A DNA stretch of 31,271 nucleotides from a virus: positions 1 through 31,271 of the IMG/VR virus record IMGVR_UViG_3300021085_000129; one strand, 5' to 3'. How positions within the stretch are numbered: position 1 is the first letter of the stretch; every line of letters starts with the position of its first letter. Positions 9,554 to 31,271 of this stretch are shown piece after piece. The notes under the pieces were generated by a model. The model was not told the origin of the DNA. It made no database searches and worked only from the letters and a program-made list of their open reading frames with translations. The position numbers and the translations under genes were made by a program.

Positions 9554-12500
9554 ATGCCAGAGATTAAGAATCAGTTTACCGGTGGTAAAATGAACAAAGA
9601 TGTAGACGAGCGTCTTGTTCCTAAAGGAGATTATAGACACGCTGTTAATATTCAAGTTACAACTTCAGAAGGGTCTGATGTTGGTACCGTTCAAAATATA
9701 CTAGGTAATAGTCTTGCCATAACACCAGGTTTGCCTATAAACGATGCGTTAAGCTTATTCAACAACCACATATGTGTAGGTTCTATATCTAATGAAGCTA
9801 AAAATGAGCTTTACTGGATGTTAGCTGAGTACACTTGGAAAGATCAAATAACACAATCAGGCAATGTTCTTTTACAGCAAATTGTTCATACAAACTCATC
9901 ACCACTACTAAACGTTATAGCAACTAACTTTCAGAATTATAATAGTTTTAATTGGATTGTTGAAAGCAAATCCGCTATTGTTAAGTATAAAAACAACAAC
10001 GCTGAGTTGGTTTTTGTAGACAAAGCGTCTGTTACTATAAATGCTTGGGATGCTAATATAGGTTCAACAGACGGTGGTCAGTTTGAGGTGTTAGCTAGCG
10101 ACGTAGCTCCTTCTAGCTCTTTTACACCCACTATATCAAGTGGGTTTTCTAGTTTTGGTACTGGATATGGTTTTAATAATTCTACGATATTTCAATTAGA
10201 AGTTGGTGATGTTACAAATATAACAGCTGGTATGGACGTTGTTGGCGTCGGGTTAAACCCTCACACTAACGAAATAATGAATTTTTGGCCAAACACCTCT
10301 GTGTTAAGTGTTGAGCAAGTTGGAACATGGACAGATGTTAATGGAGATCAAAGAATACAGGGTATAGTTCAACTAAATAACACTACTGGAGGTTTTGGTT
10401 GTATCGCGGCGGACAACACGTATACTTACGCTCCTAACTTAGTTAATCCACCAAATTGTCCTAGCGCTTGGATTCCCATTCAAATGATTGTTACACACTG
10501 GGTTTTTCAATCTAAAACATTACAGTTAGATAGAAAAAACTTAATAACTGGAATAAATATCATTGATGATCTTTTATTTTGGACTGATAACTATTCAGAA
10601 CCAAAATGTATAAATATTACAGACAGCATAAAAGGTACTGATCAAACTGGTAATTTTCATACAGATATATTTGTTGAGGAAAGAGACATATTAGTTCCAG
10701 CTAGGGAAAAACATGTTACTGTTATTAAAAATGCACCTAAAAACCCTCCTATAATAAATTCAAAGCAAGGTAGAGATGGTAACTCTTATGGTATAGCGTA
10801 TCAAGTACCTACTGCTAATGCTGGGGTTGGAGACACTTTGACTATAGATATAACTTCTCCCTTTACAACTGAATTAAACTATCAAATTGGAGATGTTTTG
10901 GCTTTTAAACTATTAAGCTCTTACTTGTCAACAAATATAACTTCATTTTTTCCAATATCAACAAACTCTAATTACACTTTGTCTGGTTCTATAGTCTCTA
11001 TAGGTAGTTCTTCAGCTAGCGGTATGACAAGTGTATCTATAATTGTACAACAATTTGTTGGTAATTCATTAGGTAGTGACTACGCTGTTGACTTGTTAGA
11101 TAATTCTAAAGTATTATACAAACTAAAATTCCCAAGATTCGCGACTAGATATAAATATAAAGACGGTCAGTATTCTTCTTTTTCACCTTTCTCTGATGTT
11201 GCTTTTGTTCCCAGCAACTATGAGTATAACGCTACAACAGGTTTTAATATTGGCATGGAAAACAGTATTACCTCTGTTAGCTTAAAAGATATTATAACTT
11301 TAGATATACCAGAAGACGTTATAGATATAGATATACTGTATAAAGAGTCAGATTCTCCTAATGTTTATCTTTTAGAAACAATAACAAACCTACCTCAAAA
11401 ACTTCCAGTTCCGGCTGATACTTCTATTTGGAATCCTAAAAAATTAGACGACAACTACGAATACATAATAACGTCAGAAAACATCAACGCTTTAATATCT
11501 TCTGAGCAAATACTAAGAAGCTATGATAATGTGCCTAGGGCTGCTTTAGGTCAAGATATAGTTGGGAGTAGGCTGGTTTATGGTAACTACTTACAAAATT
11601 ACAATATAGAAAAAGAAAATATATCAATAAGCACATCTATATCTCCTTATCCAAATAACGAAAGATTTAAAAGTATAAAATCTATAAGAGACTACGAGGT
11701 AGGTTTAGTTTTTTCTGACAAATATGGTAGAGAAACACCTGTTATAACTAGCGAGCAGAATAAGGTGACTCTATCTAAGGCTAACGCGGACAAAAATAAT
11801 AGATTTAAAGTTTCTTGGAAAACCACTGATGGGTATCAACTTCCTGATTGGGTTGAATCTTATAAGTTCTACGTGAAAGAAACGTCAACAGAGTACTATA
11901 ATTTGTCTATGGATAGGTTCTACGATGCTGAAGATAGTAATATATGGCTTTCTTTTCCGTCTTCAGAAAGAAACAAAGTAGATATTGACACTTATTTAAT
12001 ATTAAAAAAAGAACAAAACTCTAGCAATTTAGTTTTAGCTGATTATAGATATAAAATTCTTGATATTAAAAACGAAGCCCCTAATTTTATAAAGGTAGAT
12101 AAAAAAGATTTAGCAAAAATTGTAGAAGGTCCTGTTACAAGCGCTAATAATGGTGGTAGTGGACTTCCTGTTACAACAACGGGCTTGTTGTTTGTTGACA
12201 ATACTACTAGTGCTTACCCTGACAGCGTCTTAGTAAATGGCTTGCCTGGCACTAAAAAACTACATGTTAAAGGCGACATTACTCCAACTGGAGTTAATCG
12301 TATTGGCGGTAGTGTAGGTCGTTTAAGACCTAGTGATTTAATAAGTGATGAGTATGAAGTAGAGGTTAGGATAAATACTTTTAAATCAAACTTTGTACAA
12401 GGCAACTATGTTACTTCTTGGAGAAAAATAAACAAAATAACTCATTACGGCAAAAACGGAGTAACTCTTGATACTTTACCTACTACATCAGCACAGCAAC

Positions 12501-15500
12501 AGGATTTCACTATACATTTATCAGAAGCTTGGGAGAACGATTCAAGTTTCTTTTTCACAGATCAAGTTGGTACAGTTACAGCCGAAGGTACAAACGGCGC
12601 GCCAGTTTTAGAGTTTAGAAAACTAATACGTAGAGATAACTTAGCAGAGTTTGCTGGTAGGTTTTTTGTTAAAATACTAAAAGATATAAGTTTCTACGAA
12701 CAAGTGTTAAGCCAAATGGGCAGTCAAACTTTAGTTCCTAAACTTCAACAAGATCTTGGTTATGTAAAAGATTTTACACAAGAAGATTTTAGTGGTCAAG
12801 GTAATATTTCCTCTAACTTTTTTACAACAGTTTCTAGTCAAATATCTGCTTTGCCACACCCTTGGGCTAGCGCTAGATATCCAGGTGGTGTAAGTGGAGT
12901 ACCTATACCAACTGACGCTTATTACCATCCATCAGCTTGGTCTTACATACATGATAAGTTAAACGCTACAACGGCAAAAGGTTTTTTTATTGACGAAGCT
13001 TTTGCTACTGGTATATCTCCGTTTTATAACTTTAGAGAGGCTTTTCAAACTCGTTTTGTAGATGATAGTGAAACTAGAGAAAGAAATCAAGTTGCTCTTT
13101 TTGGAGGTTGGGATTCTGCATCTTCACCTCAACCAACTTTAGATTACTACAGTAACGTTGATACAAACCTAAACTCTTTATACGCTTATCACAACCAGAC
13201 ATATAGCGATCAACTAACTGATTACACTGGATGCCAAACGGTAAGTGGTGTAACTAACGGTATCCCATCTAATTTAACTAACCCTTGCCCCGATAGAATA
13301 GCTGCTGTTGTATGGGAACCATTGTTAAACAACACTTCTTTATCTCAAAACAAATACTATCACGAGGGCAACGGAGCAGGTGCTTCGCCCGCCAACGTTC
13401 TTGATATATCTATAATAGGAGGTATTGGAAATGAGTGGAAACCTAGCCAAGGTGGTTTAGGTTTTACTCCTCATGATCCAAACGGTTTTGGGTATTTAAC
13501 TTGGAACGACGCGCAGTTAGCATTAACATCCTTAGACGATGCGCAACGTGATGTTATGTTTGAACTTTGTACTATAGGTAACAAATTTAGATTTGATAAC
13601 GATCCTACCGAGGAAGTGTTTACTATTTTAGATTTTAGAATACAATCAAAGAAAAATTATTCTGAAGGTTTTTATGACGATACTTACCCTGGTGCAATTC
13701 AGGCTGATCCAAATTTTAGCTCAAACTACCCTCATGACGGCTCAACTCCAATATCCGATAGTGTTAATTACACTGCAAATGCAAATCACAGGCATACTAT
13801 TAGCGTACTGTTAGATAAAGATATAGGTACAAGTGGTTACACTCCTACAGATGGGAGTATTGGTAATGTTCCTGGTTATGCTGGTAACTGGAACACACCA
13901 ACAATAACTGGCGACTTTGCTAAAATAGTGTTTTTAGAAGCACAGACGGTTTTTGATGGTTTTGGTGTTGACTCTAGTTTGAACCCCTCTATATGGGAGA
14001 CCGAACCAAAACAAAACGACGGTCTTGACATTTACTATGAAGCTAGTAGGTCTTACCCTTTTTCCATAAGTAAAGACAATGCTTTATTAAAAATGCCTAT
14101 TGGTAGTTTGATAAGACCTGACGATCCTTCTGTGCTAATACAACCTGGCACTACAGTTGTTGATTGGCAAGAAAGACAAATTAGTAACTCTATAGTTTTA
14201 GTAACAAACAAACCTTTGACGTTTGCAAACGAAGATATTATACGTTTTACTTTAGATGATGGATCAGAATCTCAAGCTGAGTTTTGGCAATCAGCAGCTT
14301 CGGCTACTTTTCCTAATGGACCAACAAACCCCTTAAATACAACTGGTACCGCTAATTATTTTCAATATTATGTTAGGCCGTTTAAACTAGGGCTGCTTAA
14401 TGGATTGTCTTGGAGTAACTGTTTTTCCTTTAACAATGGCGTAGAATCTAATAGTATAAGAGATGACTTTAATTCTGTGTCTATAGATAATGGAGCTATA
14501 GCCTCTGCAACTATTCTAGAGCCTTATGAAGAAGAACGTAGAAAAAGCGGTTTAATATTTTCTGGTTTATACAACTCTAACTCTGGCGTTAACAATCTAA
14601 ATCAATTTATAGCTGCTGAAAAAATAACAAAAGACTTAAACCCTACTTATGGTAGTATTCAAAAATTACACGCTAGAGATTCTGATTTAATTGCTTTATG
14701 TGAAGATAAAGTGATTAAAATACTAGCAAATAAAGATGCTTTGTTTAATGCTGATGGAAACCCTCAATTAACCGCTAACGAAAGGGTTTTAGGACAGAGT
14801 ATTCCTTTTGTTGGAGAGTTTGGTATATCTACAAACCCAGAATCATTTGCTTCAGAATCCTATAGAGTTTACTTTACTGACAAAGTAAGAGGGAAGGTTA
14901 TTAGGTTATCTATGGATGGGTTAACACCTATATCAGAGCATGGTATGAAAGATTATTTTAAGGATAATCTAAAGTCTAACGATAAAATTATAGGTAGTTA
15001 TGATGATAAAAAAGACGAATACAATGTAACTCTACCTAACACTGGAACAACTGTTTCTTTTAGCGAATCAGTTAGAGGTTGGGTTAGTTTTAAGTCATTT
15101 GTTCCTGAAAATGCTATTAGCTGCGCTAACGATTACTACACAATAAAAAATGGTGTAATATGGAAGCACCACGTCGAAACAATTCCTGAAACTAGAAACA
15201 AGTTTTACGGCGCTCATACTGAAAACGACTACTCATCGCTAGAAGTTATTTTAAATGATGCGCCTAGCGTTGTTAAATCGTACAAAACAATAAACTACGA
15301 GGGTAGTCAGTCTAAAGTTGATCAATTTGTTTCTAACACAAACCCTAACACTGGCGTGACTTTAAGTGACAATGAGTACTACAATCTAACGCTTAAAAAA
15401 GGTTGGTATGTAAATAATATAATTACAGATAAAGAAAAAGGTAGTGTAAATGAATTTATAGAAAAAGAAGGTAAATGGTTTAATTATATAAAAGGTAAAA

Positions 15501-17764
15501 ACGTTCAGTTGTCAACGGGCAATCAAATACATATTAATAATGACGGCAGCTCTTCTTTTGATCAAGCTAGTTTTAGTATACAGGGCTTAGGAGTATATGA
15601 TGGACCTGTAGCTGTACCAGTTCCTGGTTGTACAGATAACACTTTTGCAAACTATAATCCAAACGCGACTGTAGATGATGGTAGTTGTTTTAACCCACCA
15701 CCACCACCTCCAAATCCAATATATGGATGTACTGATGCTTCTGCAACAAATTATAATTCGTTATCAAATGTAGATGATGGTTCTTGTTTTTATACTGGAA
15801 TTGCTGTTTATGGCTGTATGGATGCATCAGCTACTAATTATAACTTTGCTTCAAATGTTAGTGACAACTCTTGTCTGTGGATGGGGTGTACAGACAATAG
15901 CGCTCTAAACACAACAGACTTTACAGCTGCTTACAATTACGCTGCGGCCAACAATATACCTGTAAATATTGCTGATGATGGTTCATGTATTGCTGTAGCT
16001 TTAGGTTGTACAGATCCTACGGCGTTTAATTATGATAACACAGCAACTGTTGATGATGGTAATTGCATACCAGTTATAACAGGTTGTATGGATCCTACGG
16101 CATCTAACTACATACAACCAACAGGTACTAGCTCTGATATAAACACTAGTGATCCTAACGCTTGTGTTTTTGACGGATGTACAGATGATACACCTGGTAT
16201 TAATCCAGATATCAATGGAAATATACCACCTTCTGGACCAAACATAACAGGTTACTTAGCTACAAACTATGATCCTGCTGCAAATAATGACGATGGTTCT
16301 TGTGCTTACAGTGTTGGTTGTACTGATCCTACACAAGCAAACTACAACCCATCAGCTCAAATAAACGATCCTAGTAATTGTATTGCTTGCGATTGGGTAC
16401 AAGGTGGCGTTTATCCTTACAATGGTAATCCTGTTGCTATTACTAATATAAATGAATCAACGCCAAACACAAATGACGGTCAAATTGCCGTTGAAGTAAA
16501 TGTAAACTTTCCTAATCCAACTGCTCAAGGTCAAACTTACACTCCGTTTACAATAGAGTTGTTAGACTCTAGTGGCGCTGTGGCTGTTTATACTTTTACT
16601 CCAAACTCAGGTTTATATAACTTTGTAAATTCAAACTCTATACTTTTCTCTAATTTAGCTCCAGGTGTATACACAGTTCAGGTTTTAAACGGCCCTAACC
16701 AGTATGGTGTTAGCGGTATATGTGAGTATAATGAAAACATAACTGTTTTAGTTGGTTCTCCAATATTAATACAAGGTTGTATGGATCCAAACGCTTGTGA
16801 TTACAATCCTCAAGCTAATGATTCAACGCCGTGTAATTACGCTACGTGCGCTGGTTGTATGGACAATGCTTTTCCAGCTGATAATTATGGTTCTCAAACT
16901 GGTACCGGTGGAGTTGGCCAAATGGGAACTCCTTGTATCAGTTTAATAAACGGAAACATTAGCAATCTTTGTACGATACAGTGTGGTGATACTAGCAGTG
17001 CGACGCCTCAAGGTAATGGTTGTTGCGCTTACACTATACCTGGGTGTACGGACGGTAGTACAGATGCTAACGGAAACAATGTAATGTTTAATTATAATCC
17101 TGTAGCTACTGTGGATGATCTTTCATGTATACTTGCTTTTTATGGTTGTATAGATCCTACAGCATTAAACTATAATTCTTTAGCAAATGTAGATAATGGA
17201 ACATGTATACCAAACATCGTTGGTTGTATGGATTCTACTGCGCTGAATTATGACGCTACAGCTACTGTAGATTCAACTCCAACTAGCTGTTGTTATATCT
17301 CTGGTTGTACTGATCCAGCTTATCCAAACTATAACCCAAGTGCGTGTCAAGACGATGGTAGTTGCGCGCATGTTTACGGGTGTATGACAGCAACAGCTTG
17401 TAATTTTGACTGCTCAACAGCTTTGAACTCTGGCTCTACAACACCTTGTACTGACGGTGTTTCTATGGATGATAACAGTTGTGTGTTTGGTGGTTGTACA
17501 GATCCACTTTCTTGCTTTTTTGATCAAGCGTTAGCAAATACATTTCCTTGTACTGATGACGACCAATGCATATACCCAGGTGTACCTAACAATAACATAG
17601 GTTATAATGCCGTGGAAAACAATGCTGGCATACCAGGTTGCGCTTGTGAACAGCCGTCTCCTTGTGATCAAGTTACTGGCAACAATGCAACTACCTTTGC
17701 AACTTTAAATGATTGTTTAAATGCAGTTGCTCAAAACTCCGACTGTAATACGTCTACCCAATAA
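9554..17764 (+). CDS. Giant tail hub/receptor-contact protein with Cys-rich repeat C-terminus
   Basis: A 2736-residue virion protein. The N-terminus 'KNQFTGGKMNKDVDERLVPK' followed by 'RHAVNIQVTTSEGSDVGTVQ' resembles the opening of tail hub proteins in short-tailed phages (P22 gp10 / T7 gp12 type; crAss-like phages have similar starts). The body to about 2015 is beta-rich. It includes a Gly-Met beta module near G226-M227 and, at about 1690-1830, segments such as 'LIALCEDKVIKILANKDALF' and 'VYFTDKVRGKVIRLSMDG' that look like propeller blades. From G2025 to the end there are about 17 Cys-rich 'GCTD...DDGSC' units, interrupted at 2279-2407 by a SprB-like domain, with a six-Pro linker at 2048-2053. 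No signal peptide. The likely role is central tail hub with an extended cell-contacting C-terminus. Role of the N-terminus is fairly sure; receptor contact is inference. Confidence 0.78.
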   Translation: MPEIKNQFTGGKMNKDVDERLVPKGDYRHAVNIQVTTSEGSDVGTVQNILGNSLAITPGLPINDALSLFNNHICVGSISNEAKNELYWMLAEYTWKDQITQSGNVLLQQIVHTNSSPLLNVIATNFQNYNSFNWIVESKSAIVKYKNNNAELVFVDKASVTINAWDANIGSTDGGQFEVLASDVAPSSSFTPTISSGFSSFGTGYGFNNSTIFQLEVGDVTNITAGMDVVGVGLNPHTNEIMNFWPNTSVLSVEQVGTWTDVNGDQRIQGIVQLNNTTGGFGCIAADNTYTYAPNLVNPPNCPSAWIPIQMIVTHWVFQSKTLQLDRKNLITGINIIDDLLFWTDNYSEPKCINITDSIKGTDQTGNFHTDIFVEERDILVPAREKHVTVIKNAPKNPPIINSKQGRDGNSYGIAYQVPTANAGVGDTLTIDITSPFTTELNYQIGDVLAFKLLSSYLSTNITSFFPISTNSNYTLSGSIVSIGSSSASGMTSVSIIVQQFVGNSLGSDYAVDLLDNSKVLYKLKFPRFATRYKYKDGQYSSFSPFSDVAFVPSNYEYNATTGFNIGMENSITSVSLKDIITLDIPEDVIDIDILYKESDSPNVYLLETITNLPQKLPVPADTSIWNPKKLDDNYEYIITSENINALISSEQILRSYDNVPRAALGQDIVGSRLVYGNYLQNYNIEKENISISTSISPYPNNERFKSIKSIRDYEVGLVFSDKYGRETPVITSEQNKVTLSKANADKNNRFKVSWKTTDGYQLPDWVESYKFYVKETSTEYYNLSMDRFYDAEDSNIWLSFPSSERNKVDIDTYLILKKEQNSSNLVLADYRYKILDIKNEAPNFIKVDKKDLAKIVEGPVTSANNGGSGLPVTTTGLLFVDNTTSAYPDSVLVNGLPGTKKLHVKGDITPTGVNRIGGSVGRLRPSDLISDEYEVEVRINTFKSNFVQGNYVTSWRKINKITHYGKNGVTLDTLPTTSAQQQDFTIHLSEAWENDSSFFFTDQVGTVTAEGTNGAPVLEFRKLIRRDNLAEFAGRFFVKILKDISFYEQVLSQMGSQTLVPKLQQDLGYVKDFTQEDFSGQGNISSNFFTTVSSQISALPHPWASARYPGGVSGVPIPTDAYYHPSAWSYIHDKLNATTAKGFFIDEAFATGISPFYNFREAFQTRFVDDSETRERNQVALFGGWDSASSPQPTLDYYSNVDTNLNSLYAYHNQTYSDQLTDYTGCQTVSGVTNGIPSNLTNPCPDRIAAVVWEPLLNNTSLSQNKYYHEGNGAGASPANVLDISIIGGIGNEWKPSQGGLGFTPHDPNGFGYLTWNDAQLALTSLDDAQRDVMFELCTIGNKFRFDNDPTEEVFTILDFRIQSKKNYSEGFYDDTYPGAIQADPNFSSNYPHDGSTPISDSVNYTANANHRHTISVLLDKDIGTSGYTPTDGSIGNVPGYAGNWNTPTITGDFAKIVFLEAQTVFDGFGVDSSLNPSIWETEPKQNDGLDIYYEASRSYPFSISKDNALLKMPIGSLIRPDDPSVLIQPGTTVVDWQERQISNSIVLVTNKPLTFANEDIIRFTLDDGSESQAEFWQSAASATFPNGPTNPLNTTGTANYFQYYVRPFKLGLLNGLSWSNCFSFNNGVESNSIRDDFNSVSIDNGAIASATILEPYEEERRKSGLIFSGLYNSNSGVNNLNQFIAAEKITKDLNPTYGSIQKLHARDSDLIALCEDKVIKILANKDALFNADGNPQLTANERVLGQSIPFVGEFGISTNPESFASESYRVYFTDKVRGKVIRLSMDGLTPISEHGMKDYFKDNLKSNDKIIGSYDDKKDEYNVTLPNTGTTVSFSESVRGWVSFKSFVPENAISCANDYYTIKNGVIWKHHVETIPETRNKFYGAHTENDYSSLEVILNDAPSVVKSYKTINYEGSQSKVDQFVSNTNPNTGVTLSDNEYYNLTLKKGWYVNNIITDKEKGSVNEFIEKEGKWFNYIKGKNVQLSTGNQIHINNDGSSSFDQASFSIQGLGVYDGPVAVPVPGCTDNTFANYNPNATVDDGSCFNPPPPPPNPIYGCTDASATNYNSLSNVDDGSCFYTGIAVYGCMDASATNYNFASNVSDNSCLWMGCTDNSALNTTDFTAAYNYAAANNIPVNIADDGSCIAVALGCTDPTAFNYDNTATVDDGNCIPVITGCMDPTASNYIQPTGTSSDINTSDPNACVFDGCTDDTPGINPDINGNIPPSGPNITGYLATNYDPAANNDDGSCAYSVGCTDPTQANYNPSAQINDPSNCIACDWVQGGVYPYNGNPVAITNINESTPNTNDGQIAVEVNVNFPNPTAQGQTYTPFTIELLDSSGAVAVYTFTPNSGLYNFVNSNSILFSNLAPGVYTVQVLNGPNQYGVSGICEYNENITVLVGSPILIQGCMDPNACDYNPQANDSTPCNYATCAGCMDNAFPADNYGSQTGTGGVGQMGTPCISLINGNISNLCTIQCGDTSSATPQGNGCCAYTIPGCTDGSTDANGNNVMFNYNPVATVDDLSCILAFYGCIDPTALNYNSLANVDNGTCIPNIVGCMDSTALNYDATATVDSTPTSCCYISGCTDPAYPNYNPSACQDDGSCAHVYGCMTATACNFDCSTALNSGSTTPCTDGVSMDDNSCVFGGCTDPLSCFFDQALANTFPCTDDDQCIYPGVPNNNIGYNAVENNAGIPGCACEQPSPCDQVTGNNATTFATLNDCLNAVAQNSDCNTSTQ
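15626..17761 (+). repeat. About 17 Cys-rich DDGSC-type protein repeats
   Basis: Coding tandem repeat of irregular spacing inside the giant tail protein (residues 2025-2736). The consensus unit is Gly-Cys-Thr/Met-Asp-Pro-x-Ala-x-Asn-Tyr-Asn-x-x-Ala-x-x-Asp-Asp-Gly-Ser-Cys, about 20-25 residues plus a linker. Good units start at G2025, G2058 and G2087. Later units carry insertions or extra Cys, and the last (G2695) is degenerate. Each unit has two framing Cys, suggesting one disulfide per unit, and the Asp-Asp-Gly could bind calcium. Such repeats are common in secreted flavobacterial proteins. The DNA copies have diverged, so this is an old protein repeat and not a recent duplication. Confidence 0.9.
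16388..16774 (+). other. SprB-like Ig-type domain inserted among the Cys-rich repeats
   Basis: Residues about 2279-2407 break the Cys repeat series. The segment has 'NTNDGQIAVEVNV', then strands 'YTPFTIELLDSSGAVAVYTF', then 'LAPGVYTVQVLNG' and a closing 'GICEYNENITVLV'. The order 'nDGqI.v.v ... pf.i.l ... nLapGvYtV.V.n' matches the look of SprB repeat domains of Bacteroidota gliding adhesins. The domain assignment is by eye and the first part is longer than a usual SprB unit. Confidence 0.55.
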
Positions 17765-22549: not shown

Positions 22550-25500
22550 ATGAACGAAGAAATATTAAATAATATTTGGAACACGTTGTCTAACGATCCA
22601 AACGCTAGCCTTAAAGCGCAAGATTTTGAAGAATGGAAAAATAGTTTTATTAATAATAAAAATATACAGTCTAACGTGTATGATTATTTAAAACAAAACC
22701 ACAACGTAAAAGCTAACAACTTAGAAGAGTGGATAACTGGCGTGATGGGAAAGACAGAAGGTACTCAGGAAATAGATGCGCCTGTAGTACCGAACGTAAA
22801 TTTTTCCGGCAGTACGGAATTAGCATCGGAGCTTTCTGGTTTGGGTTTAGATGGACAAGAACTAAAAACATATGAAGACGGTTTAAATAAAGCTCTTGCA
22901 AAAACTGAAGTTGAAATGGAAGAGGTTTTAAAGTTAGCGGAAAAAGCTCCAACCTCACAGTATCTTGCTACAAAAGGTTTTCTTGGGCAGTTTGAAAAAA
23001 GGAATGTTTACGCATTTCAAGATTTTTTAAATGAAGATCAATCTAACATAGAAGAAGCTAAAGAAAAGTGGATACAGCAAGAAAGAGAAAAAATTCAAAG
23101 TAGAAACCTAGAAAAGGTTTTTGAAGAATTAAAAAGCGATGTTTTACCCTGGTGGACTGGGCCTGTTGGAATATATGGTTCGGCAAGAAAAATACTAGGC
23201 CCACAATCTTCTGTTGTAATGATAAATGAAGATGGTGAAAAAATCGAACAAACACCAGATGCGCTACCTTTTGGTTTAGGAAAGCAAGAGGAAAAATATG
23301 AAAAAGTTAGAAATATTTTGCATAAAGAGTATATTAGTCAGATGGAAACAATAAACTCAGAAGCAGAAGTTGTAGTCGATAACATAGAACTTTCTGTTGG
23401 TCAAATGAATTTGATTGATTATGAGTTGCAGGCATTAAAGTCTGAATATGAGCGAAACCCGCCAAGCTCTCAAGAAGCAGTTGATTATTTTAACGACTTA
23501 GTGGCTAAAAGAAAAACACTATTTAATACTTATAAGACAAACCTAGATAAACTAAACCAGTCAGACGTAAACTACGATAGCTTAGCAGATATTGCTGATA
23601 TGGTAAAAAGAACTTATAGTAAAGTGCAAGTTGCAGAAAATAGAGTTGAAAGCACTGTGTTAAGGCTTCAATCAGGTTTACTTAAAACTTTAAAAGAATC
23701 AACAGTTGGACTGGAAGAAAAATTTTTAAATGTTGATTTAAACTCAGAAGAAAATTTAGAGCTAGTTAGTGATTTTATGAGACCACTAGCTAAAGGCATG
23801 GGTAATTTAGGTGATGCTATGGATAAAAAATCTTTAGATTTATACAATAAATCTGAAAAAATAAATGAGTTTACCCAAAAAAGACAGGACACGGATATAA
23901 AATCAGTTGAAGATTTAGGAGAGTTTGTTTTAGATCTTTTTAGCGAACAAGCGGTAAACACTGCTTTAACACTAAGCATGAATGGTTTGGGTTTAGGTAT
24001 TATAGCCGCGGGCGCCACTGGTAATAAGTTTACAGCTATGGATAAAGATTTTGCTGAAGGTAAAATTTCTATGTCTCAATATTACGCGGCTGGAGTAGGT
24101 TACGGTCTTGCTGAGTATATTACTGAAAGAGTTTCTTTAGCAAACTTAAAACTAGGTATGAAAGGTTTTAGAAGAGCTTTAGATTTAGCTGGTGGTAAGT
24201 ACACTTTAAAAAGTTTTAGTTTCAAAAAATCATTAGCTATTTATGGTAAAGCTGTTGGATCTGAAGGTTTTGCTGAATTTTCTGCGTCAGTACTTCAAAA
24301 CGCTTTAGATAGATACGCATTAGAAGACAAGTCTGTTGGACTTATGGATGGTACTAAGGAAGCTTTTTGGTCAGGCGCGGCTATGGCTGGTTTAGGTTTT
24401 AATGCTCCAGCTTTAGCAGCTGCAGCTTATAGAGCAGCTACTCCATCAAAAGGTTGGGATAAAATAAATGAAAATACAAGAAAATTAATAGAACTTTCGG
24501 AGGTTTTTGAACAAATAGCTCTTGGGCCTAGAACACAAGAAACATTAGATCAAGCTAAAGCTGTTAGAGCTCAAATGGATGAGCTACTAAGAGATAACAT
24601 AAAACAAAAAGGTTTGGCAGAAAGAAGAGTAGATCAACTTTCAAATAACGAGAAAAGAACCTTAATAGATCTAGAAATAAAAAGAAATAAGTTTGCAAAC
24701 CAAATAGATAAGGTTAACGAGAATAAAAAGCTTTCAGAAAAACAAAGAAAAGATTTAATAAATAGATACGCAAAGCAAATATCAAAATTAGAAAGTAAAA
24801 AAGATTTAATATTAAATAGCGCTATGTACTCTAGTGACATGCGTAAAACTACAAAGTTAACTTTAGAAGACGCTATATTAAAAGGCTTAAATATAAAGAG
24901 TATACAAGCTGAAAACAATGATGACGCGCTAAAGCAAGCTATAAAGCATGTTGACAACTCTGATTTAACTGCAGAGCAAAAAAAAGAATTAAAAGATAAA
25001 TTAAAACAAACGTTTGACCAAGTAGACGTTTATGTTCATGGTTTTGCTATTGGTAAAAAACAAGGCTTGCCAATGCAGTTTCAAATGAAAAGCAATGCTA
25101 CTAACAACAGTACTGGCAACGCTTCAGTGCACTCTCACGAGCTAGGTCATAATTCTGTTCTTAGTAAAATTCTTGAAGGTAACGGAGATATGCTTGGACT
25201 TGTTGATGAATTTGAAGGTTATATTAGAAATAGGTTTAAAGGGCTTACTGAATTTGTAGAAAAAGAAGGTAGGTTTCAATTGACTCAGTATGCAACTACA
25301 AAAGAAGCTGTAACTAAAGAGTTAAAAAAAGAGCTTGGTAGAAAACCAACAGATCAAGAGGTCAAAGATAGAATATACTTAAACAAAGTAAGTATAGCCG
25401 AAGAAAAGCTAGCTGTTGCTATAGACTATATACGTCAATTTCATAATGAAAAAATAGACAAATCTTTCAAAGGTAAACTGTTGGATATGTGGAATAAGAC

Positions 25501-28500
25501 TAGAAACGCCGATGATATTAATGAAATACAAAACGGTGAAGATGTATATAACATGCTAACTAGTTTTGTTGCTGGTTTTGAAAAAGGCGAAATGAGCGGT
25601 TTAGCTGCAAGAGTAATATCTGGAAAAGTTAAAGCTCGTGCTCGTAACGCTAAAGAAGTAGAAGACAACAGAGTAAGAGAGCAAAAGTCAGCAACAAAAT
25701 CTATAAACGATTTTGGCAAAAAAATTGTAGATAAAGACGGTACTGTAACAGATTTAGAACAGAAAGGCCAGGGTAACTATTATTTTAAAGTTGAAGCTAA
25801 AAATATTTGGAAGCAAATACAAGAACAAGGTTTATTAGATGGTCTTATATTAGCTCAACCACACGAAGGCGTTAACAATAAAGCTTTTTTAGACACTACC
25901 TATGCAGAGCTTTTTTCTTGGTTTGAAAAATATCAACCTGAAAGAAAAAATTCTAGTGGTTTATTTGGTCATATAAACCCTCAAATACCTAATAGAGCAA
26001 AACAAGCTTATAACGTTATAACAAAAGGTGAGATAAAATACACTAAAGAAATAGGTGAAACAACTAAAGAAGGTGAGGTTAAAATTCAAGTTGCAGCTGA
26101 AACCACTAACGAAATGAAACAGCTTGAGGAAAAAGACATGTCTATTCAAGCTCAGGCACAAGAAAAAGAAGACAAACAAAAAGTAAAACAACAAAAAGAA
26201 TCTAAGTTTAGAAAAGCTCTTGGTATAGAAACAGGTGGTGTTTTATACATGAAAGTTTTAGATGCTGCTAGAAACAGCTTGTTAAGAGCGTATAGCACAA
26301 AAGACACGGTTAGACAAATACAAAGAAACCTAAGAGATCAAGCGAATAGGTATTTATTTAAGGATATTAAAAACTTTTTAGGTACGATTAAGTATAGATC
26401 TAATTTAAAGCAATACAGAGAAAACATAATGGAAAGCTTGTTTGTAGCTGACTTAGTGCAAATGGAAAGAGAGGTACCTGAAGCTGATAGAGTGTTCACT
26501 AAATTTGTTAAAAAACTTACCACAAAACAAGAGGTTATAGATGCTGTTGATCAAAATCTACTTCCACCATCAGCTATAAACGCGTACATTAAAGATAAGT
26601 CTGTTAACTTGTACGAAAAAGCAAGGCCTACTGAAGAGCAGTTTTTAGCATATTTTATGATACCAGCAATAAACCCTGTTACAGGTTTAAGGTCTGGTAA
26701 AAAAGGCACTAGAAAAGATACACTAGCAAAAAACATGGCTGGCGCGTTAGCTTATGATGCTACGATGCAAGTCGCTCAAGAACAAGATATAATTGAAAAA
26801 CGGCAAGAACTTGCTGATGCTAGAGGTGAAACTTTAGTTGAAGACAATTTAGATCAACTTGCTGTTTCTATAAGTAGAAATATAGATGTTAAATTTTCAA
26901 ACAAGTCTAATGAAAATAGAATTATATCAAACATGGCTGGCGAAATAATTAGTTTAACTAACGAGATGAGGACTAATGCTGGCTTGGTAACATATGAAGA
27001 TGGTCAGTATAAAATAAACTCTACGGTTTGGAAAAGATGGACTAAAAAAGCTAAATTTAAAAAATCTGATTTAGCCATTATAGCTGAATTCACCTACAAA
27101 GCATATAGATCGGAGCGGTATAGTAGGCTAACAGATTACGAAATAGCTACAAAAGTGCTAAAAACAGTAATAAAAGCTAGAAAAAATAAAAATGATATAA
27201 AAGTCCATCAAGCATTTGAGCAAATGATTATATCATCGTTGCAATATGCTGTTCAGAATATAAACTCTAGACTAAGGACGAACAAAAAAGTAAAAGAAGG
27301 AGTTGGTCAAGGCGATGCTTATATTAGTTACGGTAAAAATATACTTGGTATTGAGGTTAAAATGAATGAAGCAGATGGCGTTTCTCAAACTGTAAATGTA
27401 ATTCAAAACGAAAATGGAGAGTACTCTTTAAGCTACGCTAATGAAAACCCAACTACAAATGAAAATGGTGATACCTACGATAGCTTAATAGGTATTGAAA
27501 TACAAATAGCTTTAAAAGAATTAAATAAAAAGTTAAAAGAAAATAATTTAGGCGAAATTAAGAATGGCAACCAACTTTCTCCAAAACAAATTAAATATAT
27601 ACAAGATAATAATTTAAAAACAGAACTGTTTAAACATATAGATGTTAGCGAAATATATGCTGCTTGGCATTATGCTAATGGAAAATATACTAATAAACCA
27701 CAAGGATTTATTCAAGTAGGAAAAAGTTTGTACAGAATGATTACTGGCAATAGTAATTTAGACGGTTTAACAAGTTCTATTGTACAAGCGTTTAAAGGCG
27801 ATATACCTATTTTTAAAACGGAAAATGGAATAAAAATGCAGCTTCAAGCTAGATTAGACACGCAAAATGGAGTGTTAAAGTTTAGAGTTTCTCCTAGAAT
27901 AATAGATAACGAGTTAGTTAAATCTAATGTTAATCTTTTAAAACCTACAAATGCTGTAGAATTTGCCAAAGCTGTTGAAAAAGTAATGATACCTTTTAGC
28001 AGAGCGGAAAACTCCAACAACATACAAAAAGCTGTGCAATTTTCTAGATCCGCGAATAACCCAACAAAAGGTATTACTGTTTTAGATTTTGACGATACAC
28101 TTGCTACAACTAAATCGTTAGTTAAATTTACTAGACCAGATGGTACAACTGGTACTTTAAACGCAGAGCAATATGCTAGTACTTATGAAAACTTATTAGA
28201 TCAAGGTTACACTTTTGACTTTTCAGAGTTTAATAAAGTTGTAAAAGGTAAGTTAGCACCGTTGTTTCAAAAAGCTTTAAAGCTACAGGGTAAGTTTGGC
28301 TCTAAAAATATATTTGTATTAACAGCAAGACCACCTGCTGCTCAGAAAGCTATATTTGATTTCTTAAAAGCTAACGGATTAAATATACCTATTGATAATA
28401 TAACTGGTTTAGGCAACTCTACAGCTGAAGCTAAAGCTCTTTGGATGGCTGAAAAAGTTGGCGAGGGATATAATGACTTCTATTTTGCTGATGATGCTTT

Positions 28501-30694
28501 ACAAAACGTACAAGCTGTAGCCAATATGTTAGATCAACTTGATGTTAAATCTAAAGTTCAACAAGCTAGAGTAAAGTTTAGTAAAGGTATGAACGATACT
28601 TTTAACAATATATTAGAGGAAATTACAGGTATTGAAAGTCAAAAACGTTTTTCAGCTATTAAAGGTAGAAAACGTGGCGAGGACAAAGGTAAGTTTAGAG
28701 TGTTTATACCACCATCACATGAAGATTTTGTAGGTTTATTATATAACTTTATGGGTAAAGGTAGAAGAGGTGATGCTCATAGAGATTTTTTAGAGCAAGC
28801 TTTAGTTAGACCTTTAAATAGAGCTTATAGAGAACTAGATACTGCTAAGCAAGCTATAGCAAATGATTATAAAAAATTAAACGAGCAATTTCCCGATGTA
28901 AGTAAAAAGCTTATAAAAAACACTCCAGATGGTGATTTTACTTTTCAAGATGCTATTAGAGTTTATTTATGGAATAAACATGGTCATAAAATACCTGGTT
29001 TAACAGAAACTGATCAAGCTAAATTAACTAAGCTAGTAGAGTCAGATCCACAGCTTCAGGCGTATGCTGAAACTTTAAATGTTATATCTAAGCAAAAAGA
29101 TTATGTAGCCCCAGGTCAAGCATGGGAAACAGCTAACATAAGAATTGATTTAGTTGACGCTACAGGTAGAGTTGGTAGAGCTCAATATCTTTCTGAGTTT
29201 ATAGAAAATGCTGATGTATTGTTCTCTGAAGAAAACTTAAATAAAATTGAGGCTGCTTATGGTAAAGATTTTAGAGAGGCTTTAGAGGATATGTTACATA
29301 GAATTAAAACTGGTGTTAATAGACCTAAAGGTCAAAGTGGTAAACCAAATAAGTTTTTAAATTGGTTAAACGCTTCTGTTGCTGGTGTTATGTTTTTTAA
29401 CACTAGATCTGCTCTGTTACAGCAACTTTCTAATGTTAACTACTTAAACTTTGCTGATAACAATATACTAGCTGCAGGTAAAGCTTTTGCTAATCAAAAA
29501 CAATATTGGAAAGACTTTGCGTTTATACTTAACTCAAACATGTTAAAGCAAAGGCGTGGTGGTATTGGTACTGATGTAAACGGTGCTGAACTTGTAGAAG
29601 CTATTAAAAAAGCTAGGCCAGATAGTATGTTTGATCAAGTAGCTATTATAACAGGTAAACTACTTAGATTAGGTTTTTTACCTACGCAAATGGGTGATAG
29701 TATTGCAATTGCTACTGGTGGTGCGGCATTTTACAGAAATAGAGTAAACACATACTTAAAACAAGGTTTGAGTCAAAAAGAAGCTGAGGCTAAAGCTTTT
29801 ACTGATTTTCAAGATATAACTCAGTCTACACAACAGTCAGCTAGACCTGATATGACATCACAACAACAGGCTAGTTGGATAGGTAAGTTGGTATTAAACT
29901 TTTTAAATACACCATCTCAATATAATAGAATAATTAAAAAAGCAGGTAGTGATCTTAAAAACAGAAGAATAACAAAACCTAACACTAGTCAAACGCAAAG
30001 TGATATGTCTAACTTGTCTAGAATATTATATTACGGCGCTGCTCAAAATTTAATATTCTACGGTTTACAAACAGCATTGTTTGCGGTTATGTTTGGTGAT
30101 GATGATGATGATGAGAGCGAGGCGTTTTTAAAGAAAAAAGAAAGAGTTATAAATGGCTCTATAGATACTATATTAAGAGGTTCTGGTATATACGGCGTTG
30201 CTTTGTCTACTATTAAAAACATGATGATTAAGTTTGCGGAGCAAAGAGAGAAAGGTTATAACAAAGACGAAAGCGCTGTCATAATGGAAGCTTTAAACTT
30301 TTCACCTGTACTAGGTATTAGAGCTAGAAAAATAGTTAATGCTGAAAAAACGCTTAATTATAATACTAAGGTTATTGATGAAATGACAACTTTTGATATT
30401 GACAATCCACAATGGTCAGCTGTAACTAATTATGTTGAAGGTACAACTACTTTACCTGTAAATAGATTATATCAAAAAACAATAAATGTAAGAAATGCTT
30501 TAGATAATCAGTATACAGCATTTCAAAGAGCAATGTTCTTTAGTGGTTATACAACTTGGAGTTTAGATCTTGGTGATACTGAAAAGATGAAAAAAATAAA
30601 ACAAGATATTAAAGCTAAAGCTAAAAGAAAAAAGAAAAGTAAAGGTAGAAGTCAATTGAGATCAAAGCCAAAAGCAAGATCGAGAAATAGGTAA
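22550..30694 (+). CDS. Giant polyvalent internal virion protein (peptidase-, nuclease- and phosphatase-like modules)
   Basis: A 2714-residue multidomain protein of the 'polyvalent protein' style described for phages and conjugative elements, likely packaged and injected with the genome. Order: two short helical motifs at 1-70 ('DFEEWKNSF', 'NLEEWITGV'); coiled coils; a Gly-rich hydrophobic segment at 470-490; a coiled coil at about 640-790; a zincin-like site at 863-867 (HELGH); a region near 1160 with 'SGLFGHINPQIPNRAKQAYN', a motif type I recall from large polyvalent proteins; a PD-(D/E)xK-like signature at 1557-1604; a HAD phosphatase at about 1838-2000; helical segments; membrane-like stretches at 2274-2284 and 2489-2516; an Asp run; and a strongly basic tail (about 2680-2714). 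'FS[RKNA]' motifs recur at module edges. Which modules are active is inference. No RNA polymerase or transglycosylase motif was found. Confidence 0.8.
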   Translation: MNEEILNNIWNTLSNDPNASLKAQDFEEWKNSFINNKNIQSNVYDYLKQNHNVKANNLEEWITGVMGKTEGTQEIDAPVVPNVNFSGSTELASELSGLGLDGQELKTYEDGLNKALAKTEVEMEEVLKLAEKAPTSQYLATKGFLGQFEKRNVYAFQDFLNEDQSNIEEAKEKWIQQEREKIQSRNLEKVFEELKSDVLPWWTGPVGIYGSARKILGPQSSVVMINEDGEKIEQTPDALPFGLGKQEEKYEKVRNILHKEYISQMETINSEAEVVVDNIELSVGQMNLIDYELQALKSEYERNPPSSQEAVDYFNDLVAKRKTLFNTYKTNLDKLNQSDVNYDSLADIADMVKRTYSKVQVAENRVESTVLRLQSGLLKTLKESTVGLEEKFLNVDLNSEENLELVSDFMRPLAKGMGNLGDAMDKKSLDLYNKSEKINEFTQKRQDTDIKSVEDLGEFVLDLFSEQAVNTALTLSMNGLGLGIIAAGATGNKFTAMDKDFAEGKISMSQYYAAGVGYGLAEYITERVSLANLKLGMKGFRRALDLAGGKYTLKSFSFKKSLAIYGKAVGSEGFAEFSASVLQNALDRYALEDKSVGLMDGTKEAFWSGAAMAGLGFNAPALAAAAYRAATPSKGWDKINENTRKLIELSEVFEQIALGPRTQETLDQAKAVRAQMDELLRDNIKQKGLAERRVDQLSNNEKRTLIDLEIKRNKFANQIDKVNENKKLSEKQRKDLINRYAKQISKLESKKDLILNSAMYSSDMRKTTKLTLEDAILKGLNIKSIQAENNDDALKQAIKHVDNSDLTAEQKKELKDKLKQTFDQVDVYVHGFAIGKKQGLPMQFQMKSNATNNSTGNASVHSHELGHNSVLSKILEGNGDMLGLVDEFEGYIRNRFKGLTEFVEKEGRFQLTQYATTKEAVTKELKKELGRKPTDQEVKDRIYLNKVSIAEEKLAVAIDYIRQFHNEKIDKSFKGKLLDMWNKTRNADDINEIQNGEDVYNMLTSFVAGFEKGEMSGLAARVISGKVKARARNAKEVEDNRVREQKSATKSINDFGKKIVDKDGTVTDLEQKGQGNYYFKVEAKNIWKQIQEQGLLDGLILAQPHEGVNNKAFLDTTYAELFSWFEKYQPERKNSSGLFGHINPQIPNRAKQAYNVITKGEIKYTKEIGETTKEGEVKIQVAAETTNEMKQLEEKDMSIQAQAQEKEDKQKVKQQKESKFRKALGIETGGVLYMKVLDAARNSLLRAYSTKDTVRQIQRNLRDQANRYLFKDIKNFLGTIKYRSNLKQYRENIMESLFVADLVQMEREVPEADRVFTKFVKKLTTKQEVIDAVDQNLLPPSAINAYIKDKSVNLYEKARPTEEQFLAYFMIPAINPVTGLRSGKKGTRKDTLAKNMAGALAYDATMQVAQEQDIIEKRQELADARGETLVEDNLDQLAVSISRNIDVKFSNKSNENRIISNMAGEIISLTNEMRTNAGLVTYEDGQYKINSTVWKRWTKKAKFKKSDLAIIAEFTYKAYRSERYSRLTDYEIATKVLKTVIKARKNKNDIKVHQAFEQMIISSLQYAVQNINSRLRTNKKVKEGVGQGDAYISYGKNILGIEVKMNEADGVSQTVNVIQNENGEYSLSYANENPTTNENGDTYDSLIGIEIQIALKELNKKLKENNLGEIKNGNQLSPKQIKYIQDNNLKTELFKHIDVSEIYAAWHYANGKYTNKPQGFIQVGKSLYRMITGNSNLDGLTSSIVQAFKGDIPIFKTENGIKMQLQARLDTQNGVLKFRVSPRIIDNELVKSNVNLLKPTNAVEFAKAVEKVMIPFSRAENSNNIQKAVQFSRSANNPTKGITVLDFDDTLATTKSLVKFTRPDGTTGTLNAEQYASTYENLLDQGYTFDFSEFNKVVKGKLAPLFQKALKLQGKFGSKNIFVLTARPPAAQKAIFDFLKANGLNIPIDNITGLGNSTAEAKALWMAEKVGEGYNDFYFADDALQNVQAVANMLDQLDVKSKVQQARVKFSKGMNDTFNNILEEITGIESQKRFSAIKGRKRGEDKGKFRVFIPPSHEDFVGLLYNFMGKGRRGDAHRDFLEQALVRPLNRAYRELDTAKQAIANDYKKLNEQFPDVSKKLIKNTPDGDFTFQDAIRVYLWNKHGHKIPGLTETDQAKLTKLVESDPQLQAYAETLNVISKQKDYVAPGQAWETANIRIDLVDATGRVGRAQYLSEFIENADVLFSEENLNKIEAAYGKDFREALEDMLHRIKTGVNRPKGQSGKPNKFLNWLNASVAGVMFFNTRSALLQQLSNVNYLNFADNNILAAGKAFANQKQYWKDFAFILNSNMLKQRRGGIGTDVNGAELVEAIKKARPDSMFDQVAIITGKLLRLGFLPTQMGDSIAIATGGAAFYRNRVNTYLKQGLSQKEAEAKAFTDFQDITQSTQQSARPDMTSQQQASWIGKLVLNFLNTPSQYNRIIKKAGSDLKNRRITKPNTSQTQSDMSNLSRILYYGAAQNLIFYGLQTALFAVMFGDDDDDESEAFLKKKERVINGSIDTILRGSGIYGVALSTIKNMMIKFAEQREKGYNKDESAVIMEALNFSPVLGIRARKIVNAEKTLNYNTKVIDEMTTFDIDNPQWSAVTNYVEGTTTLPVNRLYQKTINVRNALDNQYTAFQRAMFFSGYTTWSLDLGDTEKMKKIKQDIKAKAKRKKKSKGRSQLRSKPKARSRNR
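25007..25549 (+). other. Zincin-like metallopeptidase domain in the giant protein
   Basis: Residues about 820-1000. The zinc-site motif is 'SVHSHELGHNSVL' with H863, E864 and H867. E951/E952 in 'VSIAEEKLAVAIDYI', about 85 residues later, is a good candidate for the third ligand, as in gluzincin-type sites. A segment about 60 residues further on, 'INEIQNGEDVYNMLTSF', is often found beside such zincins in polyvalent proteins in my recollection. Activity is not proven; a cut of the giant protein itself or of a host protein would fit. Confidence 0.68.
27182..27409 (+). other. PD-(D/E)xK nuclease-like signature in the giant protein
   Basis: Residues about 1545-1620. 'GQGDAYISYGKNILGIEVKM' holds D1589, then E1602-V-K1604 after 12 intervening residues, the classic D-(x10-15)-ExK spacing on a beta hairpin. 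Upstream, 'HQAFEQMIISSL' gives E1557 in a helix, where many members of this superfamily have a conserved Glu. The core strand-turn-strand is clear, but the rest of the fold cannot be confirmed by eye. Role inferred: DNA cleavage. Confidence 0.5.
28061..28549 (+). other. HAD-superfamily phosphatase domain in the giant protein
   Basis: Residues about 1838-2000 hold all four HAD motifs. Motif I is 'VLDFDDTLA' (nucleophile D1846, D1848). Motif II is 'VLTARP' (T1925). Motif III is likely K1962 in 'AEAKALWM'. Motif IV is 'FYFADDALQNV' (D1981, D1982). The set looks intact, so activity is plausible. The 'TARP' form recalls polynucleotide 3'-phosphatase and acid phosphatase branches, but the substrate cannot be read from sequence. 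Confidence 0.85.
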
Positions 30695-30724: not shown

Positions 30725-31271
30725 ATGGTAAAAAGACTAATTATAATACTACTACTTGTGTGTAACGTTGCAACAGCACAAACATTCGGTTTGCAGGAGG
30801 CTAGAGACTTGTTAAAGTTCTCTACGTTTTATGCTGCTGTCAATGGTGGAACATCACTTTCTGATATCAAGGTATTCTCTGTAGATAACGGTTTATCTAC
30901 ACGGACTATTTCAACTCCTTATGATTATAATTTTACCATAGGATTACGTAAAATCGCTAGGTTTGGCTACGAGAACAAGGCGCAAACTTTTTACGATGGA
31001 ACAGAATCTAATTATAGTGATGCGGCTACTGTAGGTAAAGTAAAAGGGGTTGAATACTTATTTGAGGCTGATTTTAAAAGACAAGAAGGTGTAGATTACA
31101 TAGATCAACACCATTTCATTAGATATAGTTCTGATGATGGTTGCCAAGATAAATTATGCATAAATGTATTTGCTTTAAAGCTTGAGTACTTACAAGATGG
31201 TTTTGCTGATATAAAATATTTCGAAGCATCTCAAAGGTATAGGTTAAAAATTGGTAGAAACTTTTCTGTAA
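30725..31271 (+). CDS. Secreted, probably outer-membrane beta-barrel protein (3' end cut off)
   Basis: The frame is open from the ATG at 30725 to the last base (182 codons seen). A clear signal peptide, 'MVKRLIIILLLVCNVATAQT', has a basic n-region, a hydrophobic core and a probable cut after Ala18, before Gln19, the usual Bacteroidota form. There is no lipobox. The mature part alternates polar and non-polar residues in strands: 'YDYNFTIGLRKIARFGYEN', 'VEYLFEADFKRQ', 'HHFIRYSSDDG' and 'FALKLEYLQDGFADIKYFEA', then 'RYRLKIGRNFSV'. This suits a beta-barrel or periplasmic beta protein. Two Cys ('DDGCQDKLC') may form a disulfide. A phage-coded envelope protein could block superinfection or remodel the host surface; that is inference. 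It follows the giant gene by 30 bases. Confidence 0.72.
   Translation, partial: MVKRLIIILLLVCNVATAQTFGLQEARDLLKFSTFYAAVNGGTSLSDIKVFSVDNGLSTRTISTPYDYNFTIGLRKIARFGYENKAQTFYDGTESNYSDAATVGKVKGVEYLFEADFKRQEGVDYIDQHHFIRYSSDDGCQDKLCINVFALKLEYLQDGFADIKYFEASQRYRLKIGRNFSV

Follow-up and report, generated by a model that had tools for sequence, protein, structure and literature searches.

The DNA analysed here, from an uncultured virus (IMG/VR record IMGVR_UViG_3300021085_000129, positions 1 to 31,271; 31,271 nucleotides in full length, hereafter the window) encodes a giant polyvalent-type protein of 2714 amino acids, in which a domain upstream of a HAD phosphatase very probably adopts the PD-(D/E)xK nuclease fold, as judged from a predicted model. 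The domain fills a slot whose content differs between related giant proteins. It is on balance probable that the slot holds a metal-dependent PD-(D/E)xK nuclease, exchanged as a cassette, delivered with the virion and released in the infected cell together with a phosphatase resembling that of polynucleotide kinase (PNK).

A preliminary description of this DNA had pointed to a PD-(D/E)xK signature at positions 27182-27409 (+ strand), i.e., residues 1545-1620 of the 2714-amino-acid open reading frame (ORF). The residues on which it was based, E1557, D1589, E1602 and K1604, are present at the places given, and K1604 precedes D1846 of the HAD motif DFDDT by 242 residues, in agreement with the described spacing of about 240 residues. 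While these core residues stand, the extent of the domain had to be revised, since the true domain is larger and spans residues ~1457-1815. By itself, the loose pattern E-x(20-60)-D-x(8-22)-hydrophobic-E-x-K means little because it starts about once per 246 amino acids elsewhere (760 starts in 187,073 amino acids of 80 polyproteins, slot excluded). Relatives were therefore sought for a test of conservation. They were collected from IMG/VR via the constant HAD domain as the best 80 of 126 matching stretches, and the set used comprises 79 relatives and the window, i.e., 80 polyproteins; L053, in which the HAD pattern was unmatched, and the duplicates L003, L004, L005 and L007 were left out. The PD-(D/E)xK type of domain occurs in 29 of the 80. 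Of these, 23 (cluster 1, containing the window) were grouped by BLAST alone, and six (cluster 4) joined the nuclease set only after their motif had been seen.

In this set D1589, E1602 and K1604 are invariant (29/29), and no homologue lacks the D, E or K. Among the 365 slot residues of the window protein, the 29-row alignment contains only five invariant columns, namely E1557, D1589, E1602, K1604 and Y1708. A random draw of two Glu, one Asp and one Lys from the slot would hit the four motif residues with p ~6e-6, a value that ignores the relatedness of the rows and the addition of 6 of the 29 after the motif had been seen. A motif-blind iteration with a hidden Markov model (HMM) recovered 11 domain members, all of which keep E1557, D1589, E1602 and K1604 at identities to the window as low as 22%. 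Some of the 29 are only distantly related; the profiles of the nuclease subgroups are linked through intermediates only (gA-gB 99.4, gB-gG 99.7, gG-gC 98.7, gC-gE 91.3, gE-gF 98.7, gG-gD 97.9; direct comparisons gA-gE 2.7, gA-gD 1.2). The D, E and K are also kept in the later loci L099, L101 and L102 and in L090, the frame of which is interrupted downstream of the core. Peptides containing motif residues were used to find L090, and perhaps also L099 and L101. The slot domain is under purifying selection: the ratio of nonsynonymous to synonymous substitution rates (dN/dS) is 0.26 for the window versus L001 and 0.09 for L061 versus L066.

An AlphaFold2 model of the slot domain, built with 12 rows, reaches a predicted local distance difference test score (pLDDT) of 85.2 and a predicted template modelling score (pTM) of 0.83. 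In model numbering, E1557 (position 108) lies on a helix (103-121) before the sheet, a strand (141-145) starts just after D1589, and the next strand (148-155) carries E1602-x-K1604. The PD-(D/E)xK-type core expected from the motif is borne out by this model, which displays an alpha-beta-beta-beta-alpha-beta arrangement with a central sheet. PD-(D/E)xK enzymes occupy the first two ranks among the structural matches: VIA-align places HhaI endonuclease first (Z 8.2, root-mean-square deviation 3.7, 181 residues aligned, model 102-363) and I-Ssp6803I second (Z 5.2), followed by Hjc resolvase (Z 4.8) and more Hjc entries at Z 3.6-4.6. In a Foldseek search, the model matched uncharacterised proteins of two sizes from phages, one with 259 residues (E 4.8e-10) and one with 266 (E 5.6e-5).

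The remaining 51 of the 80 polyproteins carry another, helical ('EH') domain in the slot. On a FastTree phylogeny of the C-terminal chassis (76 rows), which contains some long branches, the slot type changes 17 times, and at least 13 of these changes are forced by well-supported branches. The borders are sharply defined: on the upstream side, homology to the window stops at residues 1450-1464 in 11 of the 12 relatives where it ends thereabouts, and homology on the HAD side starts at a median of residue 1822 (51 EH-type matches). Within the nuclease type, identity between the window and L006 is 84-88% at residues 1200-1399, 22-36% at 1450-1699 and 94-100% at 1850-1999; at 32% identity, versus 95% for the HAD domain, the cassette has diverged much more rapidly than the adjoining regions. 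Taken together, slot-type switching, sharp edges and purifying selection argue that residues ~1457-1815 constitute an exchangeable cassette that is kept functional.

The EH domain, a previously undescribed one exemplified by L045:8855-9973 and present in 50 other relatives, comprises clusters C0, C2, C3 and C5 plus L070, which was added by eye. Its main cluster (n=28) features an invariant Glu-His pair. A model of the domain (pLDDT 81.7) has no good match among solved folds (best Z 4.6). Comparison of the clusters by hhalign joins C0-C2 (98.0), C0-C3 (94.0) and C2-C5 (94.6), with a weak link C0-C5 (51.1), and does not join C2-C3 or C3-C5. Against the nuclease set, C0 scores 96.9 over 62 columns and C3 89.3 over 73, which may be due to a shared flank before the HAD domain or to a real link.

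The HAD domain is the constant part of this arrangement. Motifs I, II and IV are found in 80 of 80 proteins, and 35 of the 41 HAD domains scanned match phrog_415 ('polynucleotide kinase') at E<=0.1 (best 1.2e-6; window 7.9e-5). The earlier assignment to a polynucleotide end-healing type is plausible; a sequence search against solved structures found no match for the domain. No adjoining kinase half was identified, and the sole P-loop-like string of the window protein (residues 1719-1726) falls within the nuclease cassette, where it is not conserved as such. The preliminary description had further suggested that nuclease and phosphatase would make a neat pair in a delivered protein, for the breakdown of host DNA or for repairing phage DNA cut by defence systems. 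Delivery and both of these uses are hypothetical, and a dedicated pair is not supported: as the HAD domain is constant while the nuclease is found in only 29 of 80 proteins and another domain in 51, sequence comparison argues that the HAD domain is not a dedicated partner of the slot nuclease and cannot exist mainly to serve it.

The frequent exchange of the slot also bears on what the nuclease might do. An enzyme of the same fold could act in phage DNA metabolism, as an Hjc-like junction resolvase or a genome-end nuclease that processes the DNA of the phage itself and leaves the cleaning of ends to the HAD domain. In favour of such a role, the homing endonuclease I-Ssp6803I and Hjc resolvases of archaea rank high among the structural matches, and the HAD domain resembles an end-healing family. 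However, an enzyme of replication or packaging should be constant, whereas most of the polyproteins carry the other domain, the type has switched repeatedly, and the cassette has changed far more quickly than the sequences around it. We therefore consider this explanation unlikely. Because the cassette is traded often, a role in conflict fits better than housekeeping, and the pattern suggests that such phages may swap the enzymes they carry into infected bacteria.

How the cassette might be set free is suggested by short motifs at its borders. Junction motifs (F1449-S1450, F1816-S-R, F1831-S-R and F2010-S-K) lie at the edges of the cassette and the HAD domain. The form [VI]xFS(K/R) recurs at domain junctions of the window protein (residues 1449, 1816, 1831, 2010 and 2034) and also in the 80 related polyproteins. 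Across the 80 proteins, FS(K/R) reaches about 20 per 1000 positions immediately before and after the HAD domain, with lesser peaks at -950 to -750, -500 to -350 and +370 to +400 relative to it, and mostly stays below 1 per 1000 elsewhere. With 125 occurrences within the junction zones and 21 outside them, [VI]xFS(K/R) shows a 25-fold higher density in these zones, which were, however, picked after the distribution had been seen; related proteins are also counted repeatedly. The motif is a candidate proteolytic site. In the available sections of the survey of polyvalent proteins by Iyer et al. (2017, PMC5512222), zincin-like peptidases are proposed to process these proteins; FS(K/R) would be the natural place for the proposed processing. 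In the proteins studied here, a single HExxH motif occurs upstream of the HAD domain in 76 of 80 relatives, the peptidase assignment being based on this motif alone.

The giant gene stands at the end of a late operon encoding terminase, portal, capsid and further virion proteins. At the syntenic place, phage phi38:1 encodes gp101, annotated as structural, a label given by similarity; gp101 is not mentioned in the available passages of PMC13288928. We infer nuclease activity, virion delivery and proteolytic release as follows. Gene order and gp101 suggest that virions would carry the giant protein and that it would reach the cytoplasm along with the genome. Cleavage at FS(K/R) would then be performed by the HExxH protease domain or by some other protease. 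Early in infection, the nuclease thus set free could attack DNA (or RNA) that belongs to the host or a rival or is defence-related, and 3′-phosphate ends or nucleotides might be trimmed by the HAD domain, the constant, PNK-like part. A more specific version of this scheme, a phage effector-polyprotein whose own metallopeptidase cuts at [VI]xFS(K/R) and releases the nuclease or EH domain from the slot beside the PNK-like phosphatase, is a tentative proposal to which we give somewhat less than even weight.

Several observations weigh against a virion-delivered nuclease cassette. In Pfam, the slot domain has no match above the cut-off, and PHROGs and sequence searches against solved structures gave nothing convincing; the best library matches are PF08968 DUF1885 (3.3e-5, 2/11 members) and phrog_28505 (0.0075, 1/11), and one of the 11 members touches NOV_C (0.017), a PD-(D/E)xK family. 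No relative of the slot domain was found in 50,697 phage records, apart from one chance-level match, or in scans of bacterial genome contigs. Foldseek found no credible match in the PDB (best E 4.8e-3, probability 0.09). The HhaI match comes from VIA-align, for which a best Z of 7-8 is typical even when a model has no clear match, and the list of matches is interspersed with non-nuclease sensor domains of PhoQ, CzcS and PAS type at Z 3 to 5, the PAS-like ones scoring Z 4-5. Finally, gp101 of phi38:1 matches only the N-terminal part of the giant protein (residues 260-756).

Degenerate PD-(D/E)xK members exist, and the fold might accordingly have been retained here as a non-catalytic module for nucleic-acid binding or structure. 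Degenerate domains typically lose their catalytic residues first, however, and the sole invariant residues of the slot domain are the catalytic set and one Tyr, which makes this alternative very improbable. That the motif arose by chance, within some helical or coiled stretch of the giant protein, was rejected as scarcely credible, for although the bare pattern is common and no library profile matches above cut-off, invariance in all 29 members, a confident alpha/beta model and a restriction and a homing endonuclease as the top two matches speak against it.

The features of the giant protein are compiled in the following table.

Features of the giant protein encoded in the window (positions in the window)
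Feature	Position	Strand	Basis
Giant polyvalent-type protein P0001, 2714 amino acids	22550..30694	+	open reading frame, translation
Fast-changing N-terminal part, residues 1 to ~1045	22550..25684	+	comparison with L001
HExxH (H863-E-L-G-H867), candidate zincin-like metallopeptidase	25136..25150	+	motif
Region A, residues 1046-1448	25685..26893	+	homology to 11 relatives ends at 1450-1464
Junction motif FS (F1449-S1450), cassette upstream edge	26894..26899	+	
Predicted PD-(D/E)xK nuclease cassette, residues ~1457-1815	26918..27994	+	conservation, predicted fold
E1557, helix glutamate	27218..27220	+	29/29
D1589, predicted metal ligand	27314..27316	+	29/29
E1602-V-K1604, core E-x-K	27353..27361	+	29/29
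Y1708, fifth invariant residue	27671..27673	+	29/29
Junction motif FSR (1816-1818)	27995..28003	+	
Junction motif FSR (1831-1833), cassette downstream edge	28040..28048	+	
HAD phosphatase domain (1838-2009): D1846, D1848, T1925, K1962, D1981/D1982	28061..28576	+	
Junction motif FSK (2010-2012), after HAD	28577..28585	+	
Conserved C-terminal chassis, residues 2035-2714	28652..30691	+	

Residues 1 to ~1045 are mostly unlike L001, yet identity is ~97% after residue 1046; the N-terminal part appears to be a case of extreme local exchange. The giant protein of L002 has an extra Cys-rich C-terminal tail (last 60 residues) that is absent from the window protein and weakly matches DUF5763 (E 6.9e-6, just under the cut-off). 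Elsewhere in the window, a 2736-amino-acid protein of the virion region (9554-17764) bears at its C-terminal end many copies of a GCTDxxAxNYNxxAxxDDGSC-like repeat, and a 708-amino-acid ORF of L001 ends in the same repeat. The ORF after the giant gene (30725-31270) has a signal-peptide-like start and resembles an outer-membrane-type protein.

The portal proteins most similar to that of the window belong to Maribacter phage Panino, to Flavobacterium elemo phages and to an uncultured Manatee Spring podovirus, which makes a marine flavobacterium the probable host. The giant proteins of the Manatee Spring, Panino, elemo and phi38:1 phages are matched by the profile of neither slot type and are devoid of the DFD(D/G)T HAD motif. 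The syntenic giant protein of Panino (L093:8229-13718) is annotated as a tRNA methyltransferase and is perhaps another enzyme carried in such proteins.

Among known systems, polyvalent proteins as presented in the available sections of PMC5512222 are the closest counterpart, being likewise giant multidomain phage proteins whose genes lie close to those of the virion and which combine enzymatic domains with a candidate peptidase of HExxH type. The protein described here shares the testable features of this class, i.e., large multidomain architecture in a phage, a peptidase (as assigned from HExxH alone) with enzyme domains, and a place in the late operon; the Pfam large-polyvalent-protein domain is not among the matches listed for it. 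It differs from the proteins in those sections by its PD-(D/E)xK cassette and by an exchangeable slot beside a PNK-like HAD domain. The same sections report no DNase that accompanies or replaces the ParB-like DNases of the survey; in contrast, 29 of the 80 giant proteins compared here have a predicted nuclease, which is exchanged for another domain at sharply defined borders. Whether and where giant proteins are processed is a question that the survey leaves, and on it the recurrent junction motif offers a direct handle.

Likenesses of the single domains are more limited. HhaI restriction endonuclease (PDB 6uke), the best structural match, aligns over most of its chain at only 17% identity, and no partner methyltransferase was noticed by eye anywhere in the window or in the ORFs 3′ of the gene in L001, both of which are incomplete records. 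The Hjc resolvases and I-Ssp6803I also have PD-(D/E)xK folds and can be aligned with the model; they are small stand-alone enzymes, whereas the domain of the phage belongs to a polyprotein and contains long helical and beta elements in addition. The HAD phosphatases of phage polynucleotide kinases (phrog_415) have HAD motifs and profile in common with the window protein, which differs from them in that no kinase half was identified next to its HAD domain. No report of a nuclease slot combined with a HAD domain was found in the literature within a search that did not extend to subscription papers and preprints, and the slot domain is a real, apparently unnamed PD-(D/E)xK family in a new setting. 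If active in the infected cell, it would offer a testable route for early attack on host or rival DNA in marine flavophage-like podoviruses. If the effector-polyprotein interpretation is true, the system would represent the phage equivalent of polymorphic toxin cassettes.
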